The position numbers were made by a program, and so were the translations under genes. From contig OX438748.1 in NCBI GenBank assembly GCA_949316235.1, forward strand, positions 5,893,001 through 5,957,000: a stretch of DNA of 64,000 nucleotides. The letters are read 5' to 3'. Of this stretch, positions 13,201 through 58,400 are shown piece after piece (position 1 is the first letter of the stretch; the number at the start of each line of letters is the position of its first letter). Origin of the DNA: Oegoconia quadripuncta. Taxonomy: Eukaryota; Arthropoda; Insecta; Lepidoptera; Autostichidae. Under the pieces are notes generated by a model. That model did not search any database and had not been told where the DNA came from. It was given only the letters and a program-made list of their open reading frames with translations.

Positions 13201-16200
13201 AGCAAACGTTCCCTTTCTACTGTGATCGGTTTACAACTGAGGTTTGCCGCTTGAAGGAATTAACAGTTTCCTAGCAGCGATTGTTTTTATTTTATCCAAA
13301 ATGCCTTAGGTAGGCATGGCATTTATACATCAACAGGCACTAGAAATAAACCGTACCCCAGACGTTTTAGTATACAAGTTCACAATACTATGGTCAAACA
13401 TGGTTTGTATAACAAAGCTGTTACTCATTCGTCTTTAGACAGTCTCTAAATGCAAATTGCAATTCAATTTATGTAGATAAAAAGTCTGATATAAGTTGTA
13501 TGGGTTCGCGTCGTATTTCTAAGTCAGTGGCACAAACAGTAAATAGTAATAGACGGGCTGTATTCTCAACGATTTCGACACAGCAAATGATTATTCCCAC
13601 TCCTTGTGGGTGGGTGGTAGATGATTAAGGACAGTTTGGTTCTGAGGTCCTAAAAAATGACAATCCTCTGATGAAAAGCAATGCAAATTACGCATCAGCT
13701 TCAGGATAAATACAAAATGTTGCAGTATATTTATTCTCAAAATCTAACTAATATTATAAATGCGTAAGTTTGAACGGATGTTTGTTTATTTGTTTGTTGC
13801 TCAATCACGGCACGGATTGATGGATTTGGATGAAATTTGATATATAGGTGAAAAAAAAAAATCCAGGGATTAATACATAGGATATTTTTTATCTCGATAA
13901 AGTGAGTATTCCTGCGTGGTAAACAAATTAAACATATCCGCGATAAAGTTATTCCACGCAGGGGACACAGCTAGTCAAAAATAACATTTATAAACGTTGG
14001 GGTACAGATAGACTAAACAATCAACCATATTGACCCTATTTAGCTTTTCCTCCTCAACGCTTTCGAGTAGAGACCCTTTTTTTCTTAAAAATACTAAATT
14101 TTGTTTTATTTTGTACAAACACTGGACTGGTTGCAAATTGTACTAAAAACGTGTATATGTGTATAATTTAATTACCTTTTATATCACTGACCCTACAATA
14201 CAAAAGTGCTGCATATTTACAATCTGTTGTCTAGGTAGAATAGTCTCATTAAAACTAATAGTTTTCGTGAGTAATTAAACCCAATTTGTTTGCTTACATT
14301 AATTTTATAAGCCATATTATATGACAGACATTGACCTCTATGCCGCCTATTGTTCAGATGTGATTTTCCCACCTAAGTGGAGCGACTTATGTCGATTACA
14401 TCTTTATATGGAAAAATTAACACCATACATAAATTGATTCACGACTAATTTAAAGTTTTGTACTGTGCCTCACCAATATACTCGTATTTACAAAAAAAAT
14501 AAATTAAAAAAAATGTAAAAGTTGATAAATAGAAGACTCGCTTCGCTTATGAATAATGTAGGTAACAACACGTACAACTCCGCCTCCACACTCCTCCCAC
14601 TGTAACTCCTTTAAGGTAGGATCAACAGTGGTACACGACACAGCGCCTACTGAAGGTCGACCTACGCGATCCTATTGCTACCTAAAGTAGGAAAACACAG
14701 GGGTGTAACAGCAAGTACAGTAAATAAATAATAAATCGCCAAGTATGAATAAAAAACCAATTATTGGGTCTTTACCTATGAAATTGGAGTTTTTTGTCTT
14801 CGTTAATCATATGTACCAATTCCTGCAATTTTCAAAGCTATATCCAATTTTTTTTTTATTTGGAAAATCAATCAATCAATCAATCAAATACGCTTTATTG
14901 TTTAAATAAGGAAGGTACATTTAAATATCTTATCGAAACTACAAATTAGGCGGCCTTATCGCTAACAGCAATCGCAAATCGCATATCGCAAAATGGAATA
15001 TTAATTCAAGGTTTCACATGAAATATTTTTTCATTTCTGGGCTAAATGACATAATAAAAATTTGAACAGAGCTCTTTTCATGTGCTTCTCATAATCATTT
15101 CTTAACGCTGCCTATACTTAACTTAATGTTATCCGATATTACACACAAAGTTTAGCTAAATTTAGATTTGCCATTCCCAAAAAAAAAATCAAAAAAGACT
15201 TTATGTTATTTTTAAAAGTTAGTAATTCTGCATTCATAGATTTTCTAAAAATTACTTGCTTCGGCTGGGAATCGAACCGACTTAAATGTGAAAAAAAAAA
15301 CACCCTACTTTTATGATGCCAATCGAAAGAATAGCTAAAAAATAATAACTCTGCCTAAGTAACATAGTATTTTAAAAGAAAGGAACAACGTGAAATTAAT
15401 CATTTTAATCAAATAAAAAACATACATGAAACTGCCGTAGTCAATTAAGTAGGTATTTTTTTGTAAATTAATTAATTAAATGCTCAAAATGTGATCCCTC
15501 TTGTCTTAAGGAACTACTTATAATAAGGAAAACTATGTTAGTACCTATTTTATGAAGTGGGTACTTATTTACGAATAATCAATGCTATCTTTGGAATGAT
15601 AATATCGCTACTTTTCGAACGTCGTCGGCAATAAATAACTTTCTTGAAATTTGACTCAATCATTTTATGTTGTTCCTTTCTTTTAAAATACTATGTTACT
15701 TAGGCAGAGTTATTATTTTTTAGCTATTCTTTCGATTGGCATCATAAAAGTAGGGTGTTTTTTTTTTCACATTTAAGTCGGTTCGATTCCCAGCCGAAGC
15801 AAGTAATTTTTAGAAAATCTATGAATGCAGAATTACTAACTTTTAAAAATAACATAAAGTCTTCTTTGAGCAAAATTCACTATCTACAATATTTAAGGTA
15901 CTTCCCCTTCATGTCCCATAACTTTGGGACGCCCTGTATATAAGACAAGAATACGGGATTTGTACATTATAGAATGCATATTTAACTTTTAGTTGAGGTA
16001 TTACGTCCACCGAGCGCCACGGTTCGCGCACAAGTGGGTCTAGATCATAACTACATAGATAAAGATCCATGCCATAACTGATATAATCGTCCATTAACAA
16101 TGAAATTGTAGATCGAACGCTTTTGTTAGCAGCTTTCTTGTGAAATAAATACCTCGATTTAATTGATCACTTCCCGTGGTGAAGTAAAACAGATAAATAA

Positions 16201-25200: not shown

Positions 25201-27001
25201 TGTGTTTGTCATTGACTTTCTAAGAAGAAGAATAGTTGCGATTAATGCATGAACAATAACAGTGTGGCCATGTATATCCTCTACAAGTAGATGTGCCCTA
25301 CCAGGTATTGGTTGCTTGTGTGACTGTTGCAGCTCATCGAAAACCTGTATCACTGCCACTGTTGCCGATCAATTGTGAACGCCACTAACCTATAGTTTGT
25401 TGCTCAGGTTTACCTCTCTGAGGAATTGGGTTATTTTCCTGGCACTGATGGTTTTTATCTCATCCGGGTGCAATAAGTGGCCATCCAGGTGGATATTGCG
25501 TTTACGCATTAGCGGGGCACATTCACACAGAAGATGTACAAGTGTTTCCTCTTCAAGGAGGCAAAGTCTGCACAACTCCGTTTCTAGGAGCCCCATGTTG
25601 AGCATGTGTTTGCTCAGACAGAAGTGCCCCATAAGAGCCCTTGCGAGAATGCGTAAATTGTTCCTACTAAGTGCCAGTGCTTCCCCAGCCACCTTCTTAT
25701 AGAACAATTCTAACAATAATGAAAATTTTGTATTTCCTCATGCAATCTGCCTGTTTGATGTAATGGTTAGAAACCATGACTACTGTACCAAAAGGTTGAG
25801 GGTTCGAATCCCGCTTGGGGCTTATGTTTGTATAATGAATACAGACATGCGTTCCCGAGTTATGGATATTTTTCATTTATAGATGTATTTATTTACAAAA
25901 AAAAATGTATTTGTGTAGTTTATCAACCATCTGGTATCTATAATACAAGCCTAGTTGCGGACATGTGTAGTATATCCACATTGTGTAGTATATCATATCA
26001 GGTATCCATAATAACAAGCCCAGCAGCTTAGTATGGAATTAGATGGTGCTGTGTGTGTATTTGCATAGATATTTATTTATTAATTAATCATTACCTGAAT
26101 AGCTGGGAGTGTATGTTGCAGGGCCTCACAGAGAATAGAATCAAAAGCCAGATATGGCCTTGGAATATGCTTCTCAGACCAGTTGTCCTGTCTCAACTTC
26201 TTTATCTGGGACCATAAACAATCCAAGTACTCCTCCTGAAGGTGTGGTGTGTCAGCACTCCACACTTTTAAGGCTGGCCAATGCTTCTTACTACGCTTGT
26301 TAAGAAATACTTCAATTGTAACCAGTAAATGGTCCAATTGGGACTCCTTCTTCTCATAGAGCTCACGGCCGACCCAAGGTAATGCTGAGAGCACAGCAAA
26401 CACAAACCAGTCCCTTCTGACTTGTGGTACGGCATCCTCATTAGCACAATCCACCAAAGTTTCCAGTAAGGTTAGGAGAGATGATGCAGCCAACACATGG
26501 CAGTTCACCAAATCCGATATGAATCTGAGACAATATCTAGCAGCGTTCCATTTACCGGTCTTCAAGTTCTCTTTGAAGGTTTTTACAATGTAATCAACAA
26601 ACTCTCCGCCAAAGTTGTAATTCTTTGCGTTAAGTAAACCAACTAAAGTGGCATAAATGGTGCATTTCTCGGGCATGCGAATAGCGCATTCTGTGAGAAT
26701 ACGAAGGATTTTCACACGGAAAGTGCTCAAGTCCGCTTCCAACACGCTCGCTAAACCCTCCAAATTACTCTCTAAGCTTGAGCTACTTTTCTCACCAACC
26801 CTCAGGATCAGCGACTCTAATCTGTCTTCTATCTCTTGATTTTCCGACACACGACGTCTCTTACGGTGAAGACGCTCTAAAAGCAAACAGGAATTATTAT
26901 TGTTTGTATCCCTCTAATATGTAAACTAAGTTTATAACCTATGATTATCATGTTACTGTACCATATCCATCTTCCTCGTCATGTGCTCTTCTGCGATTCA
27001 T
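1279..27001 (-). CDS. NCBP1: Nuclear cap-binding protein subunit 1 (CBP80), 5' part of gene
   Basis: This is the large subunit of the nuclear cap-binding complex. With NCBP2/CBP20 it binds the m7G cap of new RNA polymerase II transcripts and serves splicing, export and first-round translation. Coding exons, 5' to 3' on the minus strand: 27001-26962, 26876-26095, 24278-23860, 23519-23382, 20445-20342, 3391-3138, 1522-1279. All junctions keep frame, giving about 660 residues against about 790 in the human protein, so the gene continues off the left edge. The start is [20 protein letters not shown], a basic N-terminus like the family's nuclear localisation signal. Residues 14-274 cover the first MIF4G helical domain, with [33 protein letters not shown] and [16 protein letters not shown]. 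Later exons carry [52 protein letters not shown] and [19 protein letters not shown]. The intron between 20342 and 3391 is about 17 kb and contains a whole gene on the other strand. Identity is near certain; exact small-exon ends are by eye. Confidence 0.95.
1790..2090 (-). repeat. tRNA-derived SINE (family C), minus strand
   Basis: The right end is a tRNA-like head on the minus strand (complement of 'aaccgctgagccaccgacgc', with a B-box-like stretch near 2020-2040). The left end is the 'gcagggatataggccttccc' tail. The same element, in the same orientation, lies at 20,895-21,184, with a fragment near 43,960-44,090. It sits in the last NCBP1 intron seen here. Confidence 0.6.
2570..3118 (+). repeat. 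5S rRNA-derived SINE (SINE3-like), interrupted
   Basis: Bases about 2,655-2,712 follow the 3' half of insect 5S rRNA: a 'gcgaagtaaagca' stretch, then 'gcggttagtccttggatggg', which is the 5S internal promoter region with a few changes. The body follows ('gtcggtcccggttgttttca'). The tail at 3,030-3,118 ('gaggaggctgtgtcccaaca') resembles LINE 3' ends. A palindromic element is inserted at 2,849-2,976. Related, more decayed copies lie at 29.5 and 44.5 kb. It is a retroposon, not a 5S gene. Confidence 0.65.
2849..2976. repeat. Short palindromic element inside the 5S-SINE
   Basis: The left arm 'gttcgagatttcaatgccaa' returns on the right as 'tgcaatctcgaac' preceded by 'atgtctatgggca'. The centre is 'cacttttgcacttatgtata'-type sequence that also folds. 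The SINE body resumes directly after it ('ggtggacactagtctcac'), which marks it as a nested insertion. Confidence 0.5.
3470..3720 (+). pseudogene. RTE-type LINE, C-terminal ORF2 fragment
   Basis: Translation of successive frames gives [32 protein letters not shown] and then pieces similar to NDEVTADRGDW. This is the conserved end of RTE-type reverse transcriptase ORFs. Frame changes and a stop after the RKRWMDCVK stretch make it non-functional. It lies just upstream (in NCBP1 sense) of the exon at 3,138-3,391. Confidence 0.6.
3740..5100. other. Intronic DNA, nothing recognised
   Basis: This AT-rich stretch of NCBP1's large intron has only short chance ORFs on both strands. I see no conserved protein, RNA gene or clear repeat ends. 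Confidence 0.4.
5109..5440 (+). repeat. tRNA-derived SINE (family A), near full length
   Basis: The head at 5,109-5,185 has a B-box in 'tcgcgggttcgatccccaaa'. The ~330-bp body includes 'gtccgcctggctagctacca' and 'ttgtcagagataagatagcc', and it ends in 'tgcataaaaaaa'. Other copies: 6,945-7,236, 34,660-34,987, 41.5-41.9 kb, 50,901-51,250, 58.7 kb and 62.1-62.4 kb. A 5S-like fragment ('aatcgaagctaagcagctca', near 5,526-5,545) follows it. Confidence 0.7.
5580..6780. other. Intronic DNA, nothing recognised
   Basis: This is AT-rich NCBP1 intron sequence. Short ORFs on both strands lack any recognisable domain, and no repeat ends could be placed with confidence. Confidence 0.4.
6785..7680. repeat. 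Broken interspersed repeat (family H) around a SINE
   Basis: The start-type sequence at 6,785-6,870 ('ctgactgactgtttcatcat') and the end-type sequence at 7,625-7,680 ('gcgagcgaagtcgggggcaa' then 'aaagctagta') look like the two ends of the common lepidopteran element ending in CTAGT, possibly Helitron-like. A family A SINE lies between them at 6,945-7,236. Class is uncertain. Confidence 0.35.
6945..7236 (-). repeat. tRNA-derived SINE (family A), minus strand
   Basis: It is a reversed copy of the family A SINE. The A-rich end is at 6,945 ('tgtacaacgggttaacattt') and the tRNA-like head at 7,165-7,236 ('cccttgggaatcgaacccgc'). It is shortened in the middle relative to the 50.9-51.25 kb copy. Confidence 0.6.
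8108..8310 (-). repeat. Family H repeat (possible Helitron-like), reversed
   Basis: It begins 'ctagctttccgccggcggct' and ends near 'ctttcgcatttacaatccc'. The interior 'tcactttatcgggataaaaa' and 'tataccaaatttcatccaaa' is shared with copies at 10.2 and 13.75-13.98 kb. It is non-coding. Confidence 0.45.
8885..9212. repeat. Inverted-repeat transposon relic (family E)
   Basis: The left half is 'gattacgaacaactttcccc' with 'tttagtgtggaaatccaaca'. The right half is the inverted counterpart, ending 'gtaatcaggagtggagtcac'. The interior 'ccaacaattttcggctgaat' is the same sequence that is tandemly amplified at 37.9-38.45 kb. It has no coding capacity. Confidence 0.55.
10198..10345 (-). repeat. Family H repeat fragment
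   Basis: The stretch 'ccgcccgcggcttcgtctgc' to 'ttctacctacataccaaac' matches the 8.1-kb copy in the same orientation. Its 5' part is missing. Confidence 0.4.
10780..10941 (+). promoter_or_regulatory. GC/CpG-rich segment upstream of the nested gene
   Basis: A CpG-rich block (about 10,785-10,870, e.g. 'cgcgccgcacgcgtcaaacg' type) stands out from AT-rich flanks and ends some 70 bases before the start codon at 10,942. A TCAGT arthropod-initiator-like match lies at 10,929-10,933, but it is so close to the ATG that it may be chance. No TATA box is clear. Promoter role is inferred from position. Confidence 0.4.
10942..20015 (+). CDS. Secreted Thr/Pro-rich, acidic-tailed protein nested in NCBP1 intron
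   Basis: There are two coding exons, 10942-10980 and 16866-20015 (TAG stop), joined in phase 0 by a GT-AG intron of about 5.9 kb, giving about 1,062 residues. The first exon supplies the hydrophobic core of a signal peptide ([13 protein letters not shown]). Cleavage is likely near residue 20, before [15 protein letters not shown]. Residues ~20-240 look globular and charged ([20 protein letters not shown]; a Cys pair in [11 protein letters not shown] near 161). Residues ~245-525 are rich in Pro, His and Tyr. Residues ~600-735 are mucin-like Thr/Ser/Pro runs with Lys/Arg patches, likely O-glycosylated. From ~800 the chain is acidic, ending [14 protein letters not shown] and NKT sites suggest N-glycosylation. 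I do not recognise the family; an extracellular matrix or cuticle role is only a guess. The whole gene lies in one NCBP1 intron, opposite strand, with its poly(A) signal 50 bases from an NCBP1 exon. An internal ATG at 16,833 would lack the signal peptide, so the exon-1 start is preferred. Confidence 0.85.
11126..11290. repeat. Interspersed repeat with 'caaatcaaatcaaaa' start
   Basis: It begins 'caaatcaaatcaaaaatatt' and contains 'agaagaagcgacaagaaact'. A related copy lies at 63,495-63,640 ('gaagagctagcgagaaactc'), and pieces lie near 41.93-42.0 and 60.55 kb. It is non-coding, in the nested gene's intron. Confidence 0.4.
12620..12790 (+). repeat. Repeat family D with GT-rich microsatellite
   Basis: The start 'tttaacccccgacgcaaaaa' is shared with 31.96-32.16 kb and, in part, 62.69 kb. 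Here it is followed by a TGTG/CAGTATGTC microsatellite at 12,676-12,738. Confidence 0.5.
13745..13978 (+). repeat. Family H repeat, near full length
   Basis: It starts 'attataaatgcgtaagtttg', carries 'gatggatttggatgaaattt' and 'tatctcgataaagtgagtat', and ends 'gacacagctagt'. It is the forward counterpart of the 8.1-kb copy. The CTAGT end is suggestive of a Helitron-like element, not proof. Confidence 0.45.
15189..15869. repeat. Foldback element with two ~200-bp inverted arms
   Basis: Arm 15,189-15,389 is repeated in reverse complement at 15,669-15,869, almost without change, around a ~280-bp loop. Both arms contain a tRNA B-box-like sequence ('cggttcgattcccagccgaa' in the right arm, 15,779-15,798). 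The arms may therefore be a back-to-back SINE pair. It lies in the nested gene's intron. Confidence 0.7.
20287..20292 (+). terminator. Poly(A) signal AATAAA of the nested gene
   Basis: A canonical AATAAA lies 272 bases after the stop codon at 20,015 and 50 bases before the 3' boundary of the NCBP1 exon at 20,342-20,445 on the other strand. The two transcripts therefore almost touch or overlap here. Confidence 0.6.
20895..21184 (-). repeat. tRNA-derived SINE (family C), minus strand
   Basis: It closely matches the 1.8-2.1 kb copy: tail 'cttcagggatataggccttc' on the left and a tRNA-like head ('cctgggaatcgaaccctcgc' to 'ctgagccaccgacgc') on the right. Confidence 0.6.
21354..21504. repeat. TIR MITE with GATGAGTTTTTTTAC ends
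   Basis: The left end 'ggatgagtttttttacggta' and right end 'tacggtaaaaaaactcatcc' are inverted copies. The interior 'ttctatttcacttacctaat' recurs at 53.48 kb, and its reverse occurs at 50.87 kb. Confidence 0.6.
22470..22875. other. GC-rich island, unclassified
   Basis: The base composition changes sharply. Overlapping Arg-rich open frames exist (e.g. [12 protein letters not shown] near 22,770) but none resembles a known protein. The stretch 'gttgggcgccaac' (22,617-22,629) is palindromic. It could be a decayed retroelement piece in the NCBP1 intron. Confidence 0.25.
24565..24635 (+). pseudogene. Short RTE-like LINE scrap
   Basis: One frame reads [14 protein letters not shown] after a Gly/Lys-rich start, like the RKRW...D motif at the end of RTE ORF2. 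It is too short to classify firmly. Confidence 0.3.
25390..25716 (-). pseudogene. Non-LTR retrotransposon ORF2 C-terminal fragment
   Basis: A 108-residue open frame includes [20 protein letters not shown] and the knuckle [18 protein letters not shown]. This is the arrangement that follows the RNase H region in jockey/R1-type LINE ORF2 proteins in insects. It has no reverse transcriptase or upstream region, so it is a 5'-truncated insertion in the NCBP1 intron between exons 26876-26095 and 24278-23860. Confidence 0.65.
25742..26066 (+). repeat. tRNA-derived SINE (family B), plus strand
   Basis: The head has 'gagggttcgaatcccgcttg' (B-box). The body has 'atgaatacagacatgcgttc' and 'tatcaaccatctggtatcta', ending 'agatggtgctgtgtgtgtat'. 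There is a small internal duplication of 'gtgtagtatatc'. It ends just before the NCBP1 exon at 26,095. Confidence 0.6.
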
Positions 27002-27076
27002 AATTACAGCGTATTACGGTCAATCCACCAGTAAATTATATATTTTGAACAGTTTTAAAGAACGCCACAACGCAGC

Positions 27077-27520
27077 CAGGGGGGGCACACTTCAAATGTC
27101 ATCAATATTCATAGCAGACTGCGACCTCTGAACTGCGGTTGACGAACTAACCGTTATTAGTGTTCTGTGGCAGCAGCCGCCATCTTACCGGTGGGTGATG
27201 TCATGTCGAGCTCTCAGTCAACGTTGATTTCCTTTTGAAAGTTTTTGTAAAAGTTCAGATTTATGTTAATTTATTGTTTGTTTTTGTTATACTTGTTTTT
27301 CATAGCTAATTTAAAGAAATTAGTTATGAGAAGTAAAAATTTCCTCATAAACAACAATACCTATATCTAAACCCAGTTTCTACCTATATAATCAGTGTAC
27401 GTAGGTATGTATAGATAGATTTAATTCCTCAACCAATCGCTGGCAGCAGCACTGTCTATACATGCAAATTTAACCACGGAGTTGCCACTCTTTCTCGGTA
27501 AATAGTTACTATACTCTTTG
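27077..27520 (-). mobile_element. hAT-like non-autonomous element, copy 1
   Basis: It runs 444 bp from CAGGGGGGGCACAC to ...ATACTCTTTG and is flanked by a perfect 8-bp target duplication, aacgcagc, at 27,069-27,076 and 27,521-27,528. An 8-bp duplication and CA...TG termini fit the hAT superfamily. It has no transposase. The CAGGGG end is 76 bases from the NCBP1 start codon. Almost identical to copy 2 (a 3-base indel near 27,104 and rare substitutions). Orientation is given relative to copy 2. Confidence 0.85.
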
Positions 27521-27670
27521 AACGCAGCATAAAACTCAAGAATTAACCATCTTCTCTCCACCACAGATTACTCAGATAATGACTAAAGACTCTCCACTTC
27601 TCTCCTTTTTTTTTTGTCCCTTGTTTCGTTCACTTAGTGAACAGGCTAAGATCATTAGACCATGCTGCTT

Positions 27671-28332
27671 CTCTCCTCTAGGAGAAGGCAAAGGGAACTA
27701 GCCCATAACAGCCATGTCTTATTTCTCTTATTTCTTCAGTTTGTAAGTCAGTCTCAGTCAAAACAAGTAATTCGTCGTATACTTGGCGTATACAGAGTCT
27801 AGTCACGGTCAAGTCATTCTTCAGTAAAGTGGCAGAATGCTTTACAAAAGATTTTGGCGGCTTCTTGTGGGAACCCGAAAGCTCCGTTACGCACTTTAAT
27901 TTACACTTCCCTTCACTTGTACACCATCACTAACGTTTGCTGCACAATATTCTGCCATTATTAAGCTTCAAAAGTTAGAATGCACAAATTATAAGAATTA
28001 TAAAGAAAAATGTTACTTTACTCGCCGAGTTCCCGCCAAAAAGCCCCACTTCTCTCCTTATCCATTTCATTTCTTCATATTTTTAATTCGCTTCTCTCGG
28101 AGAAGGCAAAGGGGTCTAAGCCCATACAGCCATTTCTTATTTCTCTTTTTTCTTCAGTAGGTCTGTCTTTTTCTCTCTGGAACAATATAACGTGACAGCA
28201 CCAGTCTAAATCTGGTTTTAGTTTAGTTCGTGTGCAACCGAATCGACACCACTGACTTACAAACTGAAGAAATAAGAGAAATAAGAAATGGCTGTATGGG
28301 CTTAGACCCCTTTGCCTTCTCCTAGAGGAGAG
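27671..28332. mobile_element. Palindromic non-autonomous element (family P)
   Basis: The outer ends 'ctctcctctaggagaaggca' (27,671) and 'tgccttctcctagaggagag' (to 28,332) are inverted copies. A further internal copy of the end lies at about 28,090-28,155. The interior 'gtcaagtcattcttcagtaa' and 'gcagaatgctttac' matches, in reverse, the copy at 51,809-52,276. It is non-coding and sits between the two hAT-like copies. Confidence 0.65.
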
Positions 28333-28396
28333 AATAAAACGAAAAAAAAACGAAATGAAGAAGGATCATAAAAAAAAGAATAAGGGAGCTCTTCAT

Positions 28397-28837
28397 CAAA
28401 GAGTATAGTAACTATTTACCGAGAAAGAGTGGCAACTCCGTGTTTAAATTTGCATGTATAGACAGTGCTGCTGCCAGCGATTGGTTGAGGAATTAAATCT
28501 ATCTATACATACCTACGTACACTGATTATATAGGTAGAAACTGGGTTTAGATATAGGTATTGTTGTTTATGAGGAAATTTTTACTTCTCATAACTAATTT
28601 CTTTAAATTAGCTATGAAAAACAAGTATAACAAAAACAAACAATAAATTAACATAAATCTGAACTTTTACAAAAACTTTCAAAAGGAAATCAACGTTGAC
28701 TGAGAGCTCGACATGACATCACCCACCGGTAAGATGGCGGCTGCTGCCACAGAACACTAATAACGGTTAGTTCGTCAACCGCAGTTCAGAGGTCGCAGTC
28801 TATGAATATTGATGACATTTGAAGTGTGCCCCCCCTG
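28397..28837 (+). mobile_element. hAT-like non-autonomous element, copy 2
   Basis: It runs 441 bp from CAAAGAGTATAG to GTGTGCCCCCCCTG and is flanked by a perfect 8-bp duplication, ctcttcat, at 28,389-28,396 and 28,838-28,845, different from that of copy 1. The two copies are therefore independent insertions, not an inverted duplication. The G/C-run end is 71 bases from the SIRT6 start codon. Confidence 0.85.
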
Positions 28838-28907
28838 CTCTTCATTCACTTCGATTTTTCTGCAATTTATAGAAATGAAATAATGACTAAACACACTAGT
28901 AAATAAA

Positions 28908-31900
28908 ATGTCCTGTAATTACGCTGAGGGCCTGTCGCCATATGCACACAAAGGTATCTTGGGTGTACCAGAGGCAAGTTGCATTGCGTTGTTTATTTCT
29001 CAAATTATATTTTCACATTTCGATTGTTATTTACTTATTGTCTTTTACAGAAGTTCGATCCCATTGATAAATTTAACAAGAAATGTGATCTCCTGGCTCA
29101 GTTTATTAACCAGAGCAATCATGTAGTAGTCCACACAGGGGCAGGCATCAGTACCTCGGCTGGTATACCCGATTTCAGGTTTGTATCTTTGTAATTTTGC
29201 GCAGCCCTAACATGAACTGTTACAGCTAAGACCTATGGGAGAAATCACAATAACGTAAGCAGTAATTAAATATGTAGTGTGTTGTGACGCTGATGGCGCT
29301 GAGAAAAAGATTAAGTTTCTATGTTTCGTTTTGCGCCCTCTTACGTGGGTGCTTGTGTAATTTCATAAATATTGTCATCAATTTCGTTCACCTGTCATAT
29401 AGATTTAGCTAGAAACACCTGGAATTTATAACCTATGTCTTTTAAAAACATCCAAGCAGTGCTATTCGCCCTTTTAGTTTCGGTTCGCGAAGTTCTAATT
29501 TCAATGAGTCAGTCCTCTGATAGGCGACCACTAGTGGCTTTTTCATTATGAATGTTTCTGTGTTCTGAAGGACATGTTTGACAGTTAATCCTGATTGCTT
29601 TCAATTAAATCAGTGGCCCATACAGAAGCAGCTTAAAAACATGTGATAGTCAGGTGGCCTTTAGTCTCACGCAAATTCACACTGGTCTCACTTGATCTAT
29701 TAAGGCCCATGAAGAGGCTATGCCTCAAGAGGTGCGTTGAGCCTATTGATGTATTGATGATGTATTTTAAAGGTTTGCATTAAAAAGGAAATTCTCTCTT
29801 CTTAATGCTTTCAACAAGACATTTATTAATCCAAAAATTTTAGAGGTCCTAATGGAGTATGGACGTTAGAACGAGAAGGCAAGAGGCCCATAACTAACAT
29901 ATCCTTTGCGGATGCTATACCTACAAAAACGCACATGATACTCAAGAAACTAGTTGAATGCAACAAGGTCCACTACATTGTCAGTCAGAACATCGATGGT
30001 CTGCATTTAAAGTCTGGTTTGCAGCGGAAACATCTGGCTGAGCTCCATGGGAATATGTTTATTGACGAATGTAATCTTTGTAAGAGGTAAATTTGCTTTT
30101 TTGTAATACATTTTTTATAAAAAAAACAATTCTGTGGGAAGTAGTCACCACTGCCTATGAACATATCTGCAATACTAGGAGCTTAATTCCTCTTGGATGT
30201 TCCCATGTTATAGCTTTGAGGGACAATATTGAAGGTCAGTTGCTGTAGCATAATTCACTAAACCCTGTTTTCATTCAAACAACAATGCATCCAAATTTTG
30301 AATGTCAAATATCTAACAAAGACCGTCATGAAATGTTGGAGTGAGCAGCAGGTCTACGCTGCACCTGGCAGCCATTATGCTGGTTGTGTTTCAAGTGAAT
30401 ATGATATCAACGGATGTCATATTTGATGTATCATACTGTATGAGTGGGCCCTCAATTGTACTCTGAATAATTTAATATAACTGAACTCCATATGATGGCT
30501 ATTTATAATAATGATTAAAATTTCGCCTATCAGTTGACATATTACTTTGACACTTTGTTATTAATATAATATAAATATATTAATATAATATAAAAGAATA
30601 ATTAATATGTCAACTGATCGCCGAAATTTTAAACATTATTATTAGCCATAGAGTATAAGCTGTTGATGATAATGATGAATTATATTTCCCAAAGGCAATA
30701 TGTTCGTAGCCGTCCTGTGGAGACTGTTGGCAAAAAATGCAGTGGAGTACCGTGTGCCTCAGAGCATGTGGGTGGCAGACCATGCAGGGGACGTCTATAT
30801 GATGGAGTGCTAGACTGGGAGCATAGTCTTCCTGAGAATGACCTGTTAATGGCAGAATGGCATTCTAGGTGAGAAAAATGAGGTTCCGCTTTCATTTAAT
30901 TTCCAAGTTTTTGGGAAAAAATATGAATAGAAGAATTCATACAATTGAGTGCTAGCAATTTCGGGACAATGGTTTAACAATTTCTAGACCAAATATCTTC
31001 GGTCTGGTGTGTAGGTTAATCTCGTCAATTTTACATCTTTTATTTAATATCATATGTTTAACAACTTCAGACTAACTCAAATATATTTAAAAAAAATTTA
31101 AAATTATTGGAAAGTATTTATTCTTTTGAAAAGATTAAGGTCAAGAGCGATCCCATTCTAATTAAAAAAAAAAAAAAAAAAAAAAAAAAGAATGTTTTCC
31201 AACAGTTAGTTTCGAACAGTAGCATCAGTAGTAACAGTAATTAGGCGTCAGTAGTAACGGTAATTAGGCATATTACAACATTCTAGCTCAGTATTTCCCA
31301 AAGTGTGGGTCGCAACCCACTGGTGGGTCGCGACCCACTGGTGGGTCGCGGGTAGATTTTAGATGGGTCCTGAAACTATAGGACGATTGTCGTACTCGTT
31401 CAATTTTCATTTTACTCGTTCGTTCGTCGTCGTTGTCCAGCAGTGAACGCCAGTAGGCTGATGATGATGGTATGGTGGTGAACTTACGATAAGAATAAAC
31501 GCGTAAATGCTGCGGCAGCAACATACCGCTGCTTTTTTGTCTTCACGATACAAGGTGGGCCGCGAACTTTAAACTTTCTTGTAGATGGGTCTCGGTCCCG
31601 AGAAGTTTGGGAAACACTGCTCTAGCTCGATATAGCGTAGCCTATAGTGTGTATAATGACTTTTATTGTCTTGCGTTGCATAAACAAAACACTAAATCGC
31701 AAGCAACCTAATTGTCTCCATTTTTAATTTCAGTATTGCAGACTTGAGTATATGCTTGGGAACAACATTACAAATTATTCCTAGTGGAAATTTACCATTG
31801 GAAACTGCAAAGTATGGTGGGAAATTAATTATTTGCAATTTACAACCCACTAAACATGTAAGTACCATTATTGTCTCACACACACACACTGGTTCCATAT

Positions 31901-37575: not shown

Positions 37576-37908
37576 CTGGTTTTATTTGTATAGATAAAGT
37601 AAAAAACGAAAGTACACAGTAATAATACAGAAAAATTACATTTTCAGAGATTTTACCTTCCACTTTTATATCCAAATAAAGTACAACATTTGCTTCAACC
37701 TTCCTAATACCCCATCTTATACAGGGTGAATTTCAATTCGTGTAAATCCCATTAACACGTTCCGGGACACAACCCGCCTCTAGACGTTATAACAATAAAA
37801 CTTTTATTGCGTCTGATACGTGTTACGCCACTCTTTATTACGAACAATTTTCCCCAAGCAACCATTGTCGAATTGAATCAAAAAATTTCCGATTATATAA
37901 ACCAGTTT

Positions 37909-38455
37909 GAAACCAGCTTTAGAATAGAATTCCAAAAATTTTCACAATTTCCGATTATCCATACAAAGTATAAACCATTCTGAAACCAGCTTTAGAATGG
38001 AATTCCAACAATTTTCACAATTTCCGATTATCGATACAAAGTATAAACCATTCTGAAACCAGCTTCAGAATGGAATTCCAACAATTTTCACAATTTCCGA
38101 CTATCGATACAAAATATAAACCATTCTGAAACCAGCTTTAGAATAGAATTCCAACAATTTTCACAATTTCCGATTATCGATACAAAGTATAAACCATTCT
38201 GAAACCAGATTTAGAATGGAATTCCAACAATTTTCACAATTTCCGATTATCCATACAAAGTATAAACCATTCTGAAACCAGCTTTAGAATGGAATTCCAA
38301 CAATTTTCACAATTTCCGATTATCGATACAAAGTATAAACCATTCTGAAACCAGCTTTAGAATGGAATTCCAACAATTTTCACAATTTCCGACTATCGAT
38401 ACAAAATATAAATCATTCTGAAACCAGCTTTAGAATAGAATTTAATAATTAAGCG
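37909..38455. repeat. 73-bp tandem repeat array, left block
   Basis: Seven full units start at 37,909, 37,982, 38,055, 38,128, 38,201, 38,274 and 38,347; an eighth, truncated unit starts at 38,420. The unit core is 'gaaaccagctttagaatgga' ... 'ttcacaatttccgattatcg'. Diagnostic bases show a four-unit higher order: tagaatgg/gattatcg, then gactatcg/aaaat, then tagaatag, then agattta. Confidence 0.9.
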
Positions 38456-40112: not shown

Positions 40113-40547
40113 ACTCTCTACAGGTACAAACATCTGACAGTTTACCTCATGCAGGACGGTTGGCTCATTTCTATGATAACTGGTTGTTACTTACATCTGA
40201 TTGTTTTGTGCTAGACTGTATCAAAGGGTATCGGTTACCATTTTTTCAGCCTGTATTTCAACAAAATCCACCTCTTAACGATAACTTATCTCACAAGGAA
40301 ATCAATAACATTTACCTCTGTATTGAAGAACTCATGGATCAGGGGGTTGTAAAAACTGTGAAAGCTTCTAGGGGTCAGTTTCTTTCACCTATTTTCTTGA
40401 TTAAAAAGCCAGATGGATCAGATAGATTTATTCTAAATTTAAGGGCCCTTAACAAGTTTATCAACACTGTTCATTTCAAGTTAGAGGACATAAGAACAGC
40501 AATTAAGTTGGTGAGACCTGACTTCTACATGGGAAAAATTGATTTAA
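40113..40547 (+). mobile_element. DIRS-like reverse transcriptase ORF2, 3'-truncated
   Basis: It overlaps the end of ORF1 in another frame, as DIRS ORFs do (frame open upstream of the TAG at 40,112). It reads AGRLAHFYDNWLLLTSDCFV, IKGYRLPFFQPVFQQNPP, QFLSPIFLIKKPDGSDRFIL and NLRALNKFI, then HFKLEDIRTAIKLVRPDF. These are the first RT motifs of the DIRS clade. It stops at GKIDLT, where 73-bp array sequence begins at about 40,546-40,549. The RT active site, RNase H and tyrosine recombinase are missing. Confidence 0.75.
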
Positions 40548-40885
40548 CCAGCTTTAGAATGGAATTCCAACAATTTTCACAATTTCCGATTATCGATACA
40601 AAGTATAAACCATTCTGAAACCAGCTTTAGAATGGAATTCCAACAATTTTCACAATTTCCGACTATCGATACAAAATATAAACCATTCTGAAACCAGCTT
40701 TAGAATAGAATTCCAACAATTTTCACAATTTCCGATTATCGATATAAAGTATAAACCATTCTGAAACCAGATTTAGAATGAAATTCCAACAATTTTCACA
40801 ATTTCCGATTATCGATACAAAGTATAAACCATTCTGAAACCAGCTTTAGAATGGAATTCCAACAATTTTCGGCTGAATTCCTAGT
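40544..40885. repeat. 73-bp tandem repeat array, right block
   Basis: Units start at about 40,544, 40,617, 40,690, 40,763 and 40,836; the last grades into normal family E sequence ('ttttcggctgaattc'). The first unit is of the type of left units 2 and 6, not the type expected after the truncated eighth unit. Confidence 0.9.
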
Positions 40886-55400: not shown

Positions 55401-58400
55401 TTACAGCATGAAAACCACTGTGGCGTAGTGTATCGAACCTCGGCTACCAAGCAAAGGTTTCTGCTTCGATTGTCGGTCGGGAAAAATGTGCTATGGATAC
55501 TAGATAACGGATAAACATCATCATATCAGCCGAAAGGCCTCCACTGCTGGACAAAGGCCTCCCCCAACGGATAAGCATACATAAATATTTATATAAACAT
55601 CCATGACTCGGTAATAAATGTTCGTATTCATCACACAAACGTATACCAGTCGCGGGATTCGAACCCAATTCCACTACACCAATCGGTCGTCGAATAAGAT
55701 AATGAATTAGTACCTCCTAGTAACCTCCTAATAACCTAAGTCGTTACGCCCCGCCGGTTAGTAATGTAGTTTCCACTATTCTGTAAAACTTATTATTAAG
55801 ATAAACTGTCTCCCTGACTAAATTGAACGCCATACATACACTGGGTTTGGTACGGCGTTTGAGTTCTCACGAAATGTTTCACATTTGAGATATAACTACG
55901 TCAGACTCCGAAAATCGTCTCCCATAAAGCGAATCTATGCATAACAGTTTTAGCAGTTCAACTTTCAGTAGCTTTACTCTAATAGTGAGTTGCCAAACAT
56001 TAGACAACATTCATTTATGCAATTTCTTCAGTAAATAAGTAGGTAGGTGTCTATTTTGAAATCGCTGATAGATAAATGATATTTCTATAGATATCGTGTA
56101 TGTTATGTTAGGCTGCTTGTTAACACAATCTGACAATGTGTGTACAACTTGGAATTGATTTGATAAGGCCATTGTACATTTCATACATACCTCCCTATTT
56201 AATGTTTTATTTTATCCTTAAATGACGTCACAGATCAATTCACGAACCCGCGACCATTGCATGGCAGCCCCGGCATAGCGTATTATATCAATCATAAATT
56301 AGAAATATATACAAAAAGGCCATTTTTATATTTTGTATTTACATTACGTACATTCAGTGTACTAAGTATCGGGAATTTGTCAATAAAACAAAAAATACAA
56401 ATTATTCATCTAAATTTATTTTATCGCCTTCAAAGTAGGCCCCATCGCTCGCAATACAACATCTCCACCGCTTCACCCAGTCTTCCATACATTTTTCATA
56501 GGCTATTTGCGGTATGGCCTTTAGCTCATTCAGCGAATTTTCTTTTATGGCTTCTATCGACTCAAAACGTTTTCCTCGAAGTGGTAATTTTAACTTGGGA
56601 AATAAAAAAAAGTCAGACGGAGCCATATCAGGTGAATACGGTGCTTGGTCGAGAACTTTTGTTGAATTTTTCGCTAAAAACTCTTTCACTATAATGGCTG
56701 TGTGTGATGGTGCATTATCATGGTGCAGCATCCATGAGTTGTGTTGCCACAAATCTGGACGTTTTCGGCGGATACTCTCACGCAAACGCTTCATGACGCC
56801 TAAATAATATTCTTTATTCACTGTTTCTCCCTCTGGAAGGAATTCGGAGTGAACCACACCACGGTAGTCAAAAAAAACTGTCAGCATCACCTTGATTTTG
56901 GAGCGACTTTGCCGCGGTTTTTTGGGTTTCGGCTCGTTTTCGAGACGCCATTCTGAAGACTGTTGGCTTGTTTGCATGTCGTACTCATAAACCCATGTCT
57001 CGTCGCCAGTTATTATACGTTTCATAAAGGTCGGATCCGTAGAAGCTCGGGAAACCATGTCTTCAGCGACATGCTTTCGCTGCGCTTTTTGAACAAAATT
57101 GAGCTCTTTTGGAACTAGTCGAGCGGCGACGCGTTTCATGCCTAAAATGTCAATGAGAATGTTGTGGACGGACTTAAAAGATATGTTCACCTCACTAGCC
57201 TACTCTCTCAGACTCATACGTCGATTTTCGAGCACTAGCTTCTTGATTCTGTCGATGTTTTCTTTGGTCGTAGCGGTTGAAGGTCTACCAGAACGAGGCA
57301 AGTCTACTACTACTTCTCGGCCTTCTTTAAAAGCCTTATACCATTCATAAGCCCTTGTTTTCGATATACACGATTCGCCGTAGGTATTTCTTAGTGATTC
57401 ACCACATGAAATATCATTTGAAACACAAAATTTAAGGCACACTCTTTGTTCAACAATATTTTCCATTGTAAAAATCGCCGAGGACTCAAAACTATGACCA
57501 ACAAAAAGTGTAGTTTATAACAAATTAAATGACATCCCGCTCAAATTTTGCGCGCTAAATCAGTACAGTGCTACCAACATGCAGTAAAAAAATTAGAACG
57601 ACCTCTTTTACGCGGGTCTTTTTATTGACATATTCCCGATACTTTTTACACAGAGTAGTATGTCACTATATGCCCTGGAAATCTATGGGGGAGACGTTCT
57701 GTTGCTGATATAATGATGATAATTTTATTATTTTTCTAAAACGATTCTAGATTTTTTCTTTCGTAAATATATTGCGATATTTATAATCTTGACCTACAGC
57801 TTAGAACTAAGTTGATCATGCCCTCAGGCTCGGCTCCCCATGGCGGACTACGGACGCGTCGGAGCGCGGCCGGCTCATCAACCGACTGGCCGACCTCATT
57901 GAGAGGGACAGAGATTACTTGGCGGTGAGTTAATCCTAGACAACCTGCATTGCCTGTTTAAAACTAGAGTTGCTTGCGATACAGGGCTAACAACTTTATC
58001 ATATATAATTATAGATGTTCCTTTGACGGTTAGTGATTGCCTGGTTGGTATCCATATTACCTGTAAGGTTGAATTAATGCACCGACCTCAGAACAAAGGA
58101 CGAAAAACGCGTTCACAAGTCCCATATACATAGTAGGTACTTCAAAAACAACGCTCAGGATGAGGGACATTTGTCCGCCGGACTATTTAGTCCGCGAGTT
58201 TAGAATGTATGGAATCCTATGCAACACACGGCGCAGAATTATCTTAAGATATTACTTGCTTGCTCATACAAAGCGATATGCTCCTCTTGAAAGTGAAAGA
58301 TAAACATACTCAATTTAGACAAATATATCGTAATATGTCACAGATAAATCTTAAGATCAGAGACGTTCTCTTTCATATTTTCCTATAGCTCTGTGTAAAA

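Follow-up and report, generated by a model that had tools for sequence, protein, structure and literature searches.

Two separate insertions of a young hAT-like MITE between the head-to-head NCBP1 and SIRT6 genes of Oegoconia quadripuncta

MITEs of the hAT superfamily in insects are short, non-coding, high-copy elements with 8-bp target-site duplications and a CAGRG-type end, and their families are young and homogeneous. Within the hAT transposons, Hermes makes 8-bp duplications with the target pattern nTnnnnAn (PMC10368747, available part of the text), and the accessible sections on Hydra hATx-6 name a preference for G1, C3, A6, A7 and C8 within the target and for C and A at flank positions +2 and +3 (PMC8721813). 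The portions available of two further reports state that TcBuster favoured promoter regions in a yeast and that AcDs showed cryptic promoter-enhancer activity in yeast (PMC10512250), and that the intergenic bias of TcBuster in Pichia was ascribed to nucleosome-free regions, as for Hermes (PMC6033949). According to the part of another paper at hand, P and Mu insertions concentrate at transcription start sites and those of Ac/Ds at start and end sites (PMC7337890). For ProtoRAG, the sections at hand indicate that a YY1-like factor binds cis-elements in the terminal repeats and that these elements are important for the transcription of its genes (PMC7481187).

The window analysed here is a stretch of 64,000 nucleotides of the lepidopteran Oegoconia quadripuncta (contig OX438748.1, positions 5,893,001 to 5,957,000), and positions without a contig or locus name are those of this window. 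Two arms of an element that resembles the insect hAT MITEs in length, copy number, 8-bp duplications, CAGRG-type end and homogeneity lie in it between two genes. The element is unlike them in its inverted termini, which barely match: CAGGGGGGG and the other end read inward, CAAAGAGTA, agree at 4 of 9 positions. The features of the locus are as follows.

26999-27001, minus strand: NCBP1 start codon (ATG 27001-26999)
27069-27076, no strand: left target-site duplication of copy 1, aacgcagc
27077-27520, plus strand: hAT-like MITE copy 1, 444 bp, CAGGGGGGG...CTCTTTG, subfamily A (direct reading and BLAST)
27176-27186, minus strand: AAGATGGCGGC in copy 1, reading toward NCBP1
27196-27203, minus strand: TGACATCA in copy 1 (sequence position)
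27521-27528, no strand: right target-site duplication of copy 1, aacgcagc
27529-27668, no strand: gap segment from copy 1 to repeat X, 140 bp, without match in the other sequences compared
27669-28365, no strand: span of the high-copy repeat X, in two or more copies that overlap or are nested
28389-28396, no strand: left target-site duplication of copy 2, ctcttcat
28397-28837, minus strand: hAT-like MITE copy 2, 441 bp, subfamily A with two private changes (direct reading and BLAST)
28714-28721, plus strand: TGACATCA in copy 2 (sequence position)
28731-28741, plus strand: AAGATGGCGGC in copy 2, reading toward SIRT6; an 8-codon ORF (MAAAATEH) begins at its ATG
28838-28845, no strand: right target-site duplication of copy 2, ctcttcat
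28908-28910, plus strand: SIRT6 start codon (ATG 28908)

An earlier note on this DNA, made from the sequence alone, had described two near-identical elements of 441 and 444 bp in inverse orientation. Both arms were read at these lengths, and a 3-bp indel and a C/A substitution are the only differences between them. Each arm has its own perfect 8-bp duplication and the two octamers differ, as the note had reported, meaning that the arms are separate insertions of one element, as it had also proposed; because the duplications differ, a plain palindrome or a simple inverted duplication was rejected. The note was equally right that the same end, CAGGGGGGG, is turned toward the nearest gene in both arms, and that AAGATGGCGGC and a CRE-like octamer, TGACATCA, lie in each of them on the strand directed toward the adjoining gene. 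Its positions for the distances of 76 and 71 bases to the start codons hold, but these figures come from subtraction, and the intervening bases number 75 on the NCBP1 side and 70 on the SIRT6 side.

The left gene was identified as NCBP1 by a PDB sequence search (1n52, E 3.3e-107) and a MIF4G domain match. The right one is SIRT6: in a protein search with the joined exons, the 29 best proteins were 79-89% identical, the named ones all being lepidopteran Sirt6 or sirtuin and the rest unnamed products of Lepidoptera. The closest were those of Achroia grisella and Aphomia sociella (89%), and one further lepidopteran, Choristoneura, gave 69%. By reading, intron 1 of SIRT6 (about 28911-29051) seems to have a GC-AG splice pair (GAG|gcaagt ... 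ttacag|AAG).

The genes lie head to head, but a divergent promoter bracketed by the arms, as in the earlier note, describes the locus only in part, since the gap between the arms is largely a second repeat: repeat X, matched in 19 of the 84 sequences compared (window included, some loci overlapping), fills about 700 of the 860 bp between the arm duplications. Without the insertions, and with each target duplication counted once, about 310 bp would separate the start codons (75 + 140 for 27529-27668 + 23 for 28366-28388 + 70), and the promoter was therefore compact before insertions widened it. Elsewhere in the window, a second long inverted repeat has arms at 15189-15396 and 15662-15869 that are 98.6% identical, perhaps a fold-back-like MITE. 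Tandem-repeat arrays with a period of about 73 bp and stretches up to 99% alike lie at 37896-38442 and 40546-40870; the ORFs between them look, by reading, like a DIRS-type retroelement, one of them being without a Pfam match.

We searched the window's own genome (622.6 Mb, 45 contigs) for the family. The first 36 bases (the CAGGGGGGG end), with up to three mismatches allowed, gave 384 matches, and the reversed pattern used as a control gave 0, so the window arms are not chance matches. There are 313 exact 25-base left ends (preceded by A in 25 cases, C in 150, G in 68 and T in 70) and 462 exact 24-base right ends. The fetched loci yielded 57 unique full-length copies, a number that includes the two of the window. 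Exactly 444 bp was the length of 35. An 8-bp duplication flanks 52 of the copies, perfect in 49 of them and with a single mismatch in 3; the other 5 have none. The note had named an element that lacks 8-bp duplications elsewhere as evidence against its reading; 50 other sampled copies have one. At locus L053 a full copy is inserted in another copy and duplicates GTATAGAT, which the uninterrupted copy 1 holds once. This nested insertion, together with the recurrence of duplications among copies, establishes the insertion mechanism. The element is short, has many homogeneous copies and no long ORF was seen in it, which fits a MITE. Pieces of it were sought in viral contigs and none was found. 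No publication on the family was found in the literature searched, which lacks most subscription journals and repeat libraries; the family is new but of a kind already known, and the setting in which it is found here is unusually clear. On C17 a mariner interrupts a MITE copy at a TA (L040) and was therefore active after the MITE had spread. A mariner transposase ORF is also present in the window (56402-57199), and the one inside the MITE copy (L040:1520-2840) is very similar by reading.

By six linked sites, 23 of the 57 compared rows fall in subfamily A, 27 in subfamily B and 7 in neither. Mean substitutions from the subfamily's own majority sequence per 444 bp are 1.6 (0.35%) for A and 4.1 (0.92%) for B, which give minimum ages because the sampled copies were chosen by nearly exact ends. 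Exact 36-base ends of subfamily A account for 28 of the 384 matches. Both window arms belong to subfamily A. Copies with exactly the sequence of copy 1 occur on C1 and C19, and copy 2 has no closer relative than copy 1, copies on other contigs being equally close. By these distances the window insertions are recent, and neither arm has to have given rise to the other.

The 8-bp duplication and the CAGGG end suggest that the element belongs to the hAT superfamily, and the duplications at 52 of 57 copies support the hAT-like label it was first given. The target-site pattern was drawn from the aligned empty sites of 52 insertions. Preferred bases in the duplication are G1 (0.48), C3 (0.40), A7 (0.44) and C8 (0.42), with A (0.37) and G (0.38) at position 6, and in the flank C at +2 (0.38) and A at +3 (0.60). 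This pattern equals that of hATx-6 at 6 of the 7 positions named in the sections available, position 6 being a near tie; hATx-6 belongs to another phylum, and the likeness is one of target pattern. The Hermes pattern nTnnnnAn is not enriched (7 of 52 sites, 5.1 expected). The P-element family, which also makes 8-bp duplications, was rejected as an affiliation: mean agreement with GTCYRGAC is 3.56 of 8 positions (2.38 expected), and the flanking bases fit hATx-6 instead of the P-element flank pattern, which they do not match.

Matches to the hAT dimerisation domain PF05699 number 147 in the genome. We compared their positions with 281 listed left ends (part of the 384, some entered twice, one base apart) and 45 right-end-only positions. 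Two lie within 12 kb of a listed left end, one at 10.9 kb and the other 1.0 kb from the L025 copy. The latter is a fragment with a stop and is not inside the element, since it flanks a full-length copy with its own duplication. No hAT transposase inside or bounded by element ends was found among the 147 matches and the listed ends. End-to-end candidates of 1.3-5.8 kb exist, among them C1:17896644-17899904, C2:38407462-38410028, C3:12537092-12539947 and C2:33335852-33341695; one candidate, partly read, holds a repeat insertion. Two stretches of about 1.33 kb (C3:7574672-7575999 and C3:8287579-8288906) have the same ends as the MITE family and are possibly a longer member.

Copies of the element are clustered. 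Among 263 left-end positions (all those preceded by A, G or T and the first 100 of 150 preceded by C), there were 6 pairs within 2 kb where a uniform model gives 0.22, 11 within 10 kb (1.1 expected) and 33 within 100 kb (11.1 expected); since the excess reaches 100 kb, regional effects contribute. Of the 8 listed pairs within 2.5 kb we read 7, leaving out the C5 pair. Five of the seven lie 70-257 bp upstream of an ATG (NCBP1/SIRT6, CDK8, MED21, CCDC97 and PMS2), and at the other two (C11, C14) no gene was recognised. Relatedness was tested in six pairs. The members of L043, L044 and L047 are clearly not close relatives, and L047 combines subfamilies A and B, which favours repeated hits. In the window pair and in L049 one member is nearest to the other, alone or with ties, and the L045 pair has a common rare deletion, present in 3 of 59 aligned rows (the third being L048), a sign of local copying or gene conversion at that locus. 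Repeated hits account better than local hopping for most of the clustering, not for all of it.

Some pairs have features of their own. At L043 (C2:8405288-8406208), two head-to-head copies upstream of CDK8 have 21 bp between their CAGGG ends, and each has its own perfect 8-bp duplication. The two same-orientation copies of L045 (C11:14404.6-14405.7 kb) have different duplications; they share the rare deletion yet differ at subfamily sites, possibly through gene conversion. At L049 (C2:34612000-34621000) the CTTTG-side flanks of the two copies are mutually inverted, suggesting inverted duplication or recombination between copies. Among the listed positions, 11 of 14 pairs within 20 kb are inverted and 3 are direct; recombination may remove close direct pairs.

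We then considered the position of copies relative to genes. Within 1 kb of the 57 copies there are 337 ORFs of at least 60 aa, and 144 of the 150 longest were scanned against Pfam (the six omitted being four duplicates and two frames of the window), single cases being checked separately. The bases between copy and start codon are, for the eight genes within 400 bp and for two further ones:

SIRT6, 70
NCBP1, 75
MED21, 119
CCDC97, 121
OSGEPL1/TsaD, 153
PMS2, 167 (L088)
CDK8, 257
MPP6, 387
COX6B-family gene, 569
G-gamma gene, 778

All ten point away from the copy, and a cathepsin-like exon (L009) and a zinc-finger ORF (L056) point toward it; the remaining Pfam matches near copies are transposon domains or one Myb/SANT ORF (L025). 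An MPPE1-like reading at L008, made by eye and without a Pfam match, was left out of the counts, and genes at L087 were sought by reading ORFs. The loci L043, L044 and L088 were fetched as pair-holding loci. Among the 43 full-length sites not fetched for pairing, 3 have an identified ATG within 400 bp (MPP6, OSGEPL1 and MED21), where about 0.5 is expected on an assumed 17,000 genes. This count speaks both for a promoter preference, by its excess, and against it, being only 3. The control, 10 shifted loci (23 kb), is thin; control ORFs were taken from these loci and from stretches of L039-L056 lying over 1 kb away from any copy. A host exon was recognisable by reading in 2 of the 10 shifted loci, and the control ORFs of at least 68 aa (144 of 147) matched host families too (ARPC3 and enolase, both in ORFs over 1 kb away from copies, and fucosyltransferase, PX and leucine-rich repeats), so nearness to genes as such is not clearly raised. 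Nearness to gene 5' ends seems raised. The promoter-targeted integration suggested in the earlier note therefore stands in part: 5 of 7 close pairs and 3 of 43 sites indicate that gene 5' ends are to some degree preferred, but an excess at start sites over matched controls does not follow from a control of 10 loci, which is too small.

Across the 57 copies (with bootstrap intervals), GC content is 0.45 beside the insertions, near background by 60-120 bp and, at 120-300 bp, 0.02 below that of distant flanks; the local rise may come from a preference for target sequences, from a promoter signature, or from the two together. The GC-rich flank of L058 was rejected as a promoter, since the same flank recurs at L059 and is a repeat. 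A codon-usage score for exons near insertions was dropped, as it separated coding from non-coding sequence weakly and had been trained partly on the same loci.

The motif AAGATGGCGGC, which we take to be YY1/TISU-like, is present in 52 of the 57 copies, and TGACATCA, presumably CRE-like, in 53; they thus come with the family and were not acquired at the NCBP1-SIRT6 locus. A literature search for TISU jointly with AAGATGGCGGC found no paper. On its gene-directed strand copy 2 has seven ATGs, including one in AAGATGG that opens an 8-codon ORF. Splicing from the GTAAG of the element was considered and rejected, since no single splice model serves both genes: there is a possible acceptor toward SIRT6, but AG does not occur in the 75 bases next to NCBP1.

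The element inserts independently with an 8-bp duplication, is young, high in copy number and clustered, and lies upstream of several ATGs; that its insertion is promoter-directed or promoter-tolerated is modestly supported. The reading we prefer, with a probability of roughly 0.7, is that this young, non-coding hAT-like MITE inserted twice, by separate cut-and-paste events, into the short intergenic region between NCBP1 and SIRT6. It would have been moved in trans by a hAT transposase with a target choice like that of hATx-6. Its copies recur in short GC-rich stretches and, above expectation, at gene 5' ends. The recurrence at 5' ends would most likely come from promoter chromatin that is open in the germ line and from tolerance of insertions upstream of the ATG, neither NCBP1 nor SIRT6 being, presumably, strongly harmed. 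If promoters are open and tolerant in this way, a few of them would be hit repeatedly, NCBP1-SIRT6 among them.

Retention for function is the alternative closest to the earlier note, one of whose two suggestions was that the element supplies promoter or 5' UTR sequence. Each gene would start inside its own copy, with TGACATCA, then AAGATGGCGGC, then the CAGGG end forming an outward promoter or 5' UTR. The equal orientation at NCBP1 and SIRT6 and the intact motifs in nearly all copies are what it would predict, the ProtoRAG case offers a parallel in the sections available (PMC7481187), and the CAGGG end of the nearest copy faces 6 of the 8 identified ATGs within 400 bp. This last figure is not significant, however, CCDC97 and CDK8 being faced by the other end, and without the window genes it falls to 4 of 6, so no orientation rule emerges. 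A read-through transcript would also be burdened by the seven ATGs of copy 2, and the motifs are family-wide. The note's proposal is thus not supported, and we regard retention as unlikely. Its boldest form, in which the element would be a portable, oriented promoter, left over from the promoter of a hAT transposase, with a start of YY1/TISU-like kind and acting outward via the CAGGG end, and would land repeatedly in germ-line-open promoters, giving both head-to-head genes matching transposon-derived starts and shared regulation, is highly doubtful.

A local origin, in which the second arm derives from the first by local hopping or by inverted duplication with gene conversion, is rather improbable. 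It would suit two arms of the younger subfamily A that are two changes apart, a copy 1 among the closest relatives of copy 2 (though tied with copies on other contigs), the pair excess up to 100 kb and the rare deletion whose three rows include both members of L045. However, the different duplications exclude simple inverted duplication, the identity of copy 1 to the C1 and C19 copies leaves no special closeness between the arms, and in L043, L044 and L047 the pair members are not close relatives. Random insertion, noticed for its striking look, might seem enough, since 384 copies in 622 Mb offer many chances and a single pair needs little explaining; against 6 pairs within 2 kb where 0.22 is expected (263 listed positions), and with 5 of the 7 close pairs read sitting at ATGs, coincidence is very unlikely. 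A long, nearly perfect inverted repeat could also be produced by an assembly error, but the arms differ by two changes and bear different duplications, so they are not an assembly copy, and 50 other sampled copies have an 8-bp duplication as well; this explanation is hardly credible.

In the preferred reading, with repeated insertion at open and tolerant promoters, the element is like TcBuster and Hermes, hAT transposons that, in the parts of the reports available, favour promoter, intergenic or nucleosome-free regions in yeasts, Hermes also with 8-bp duplications. The Drosophila P element and maize Mu resemble it, in the text at hand, in their insertions at gene starts. Both belong to superfamilies other than hAT, and their start-site targeting is much stronger and genome-wide. 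A family as young and homogeneous as this one allows recurrent, independent insertions at the same promoters to be counted and dated, and integration preference thereby becomes separable from selection without a laboratory screen. Were the outward-promoter reading true, one mobile element would have wired both genes of a bidirectional pair.
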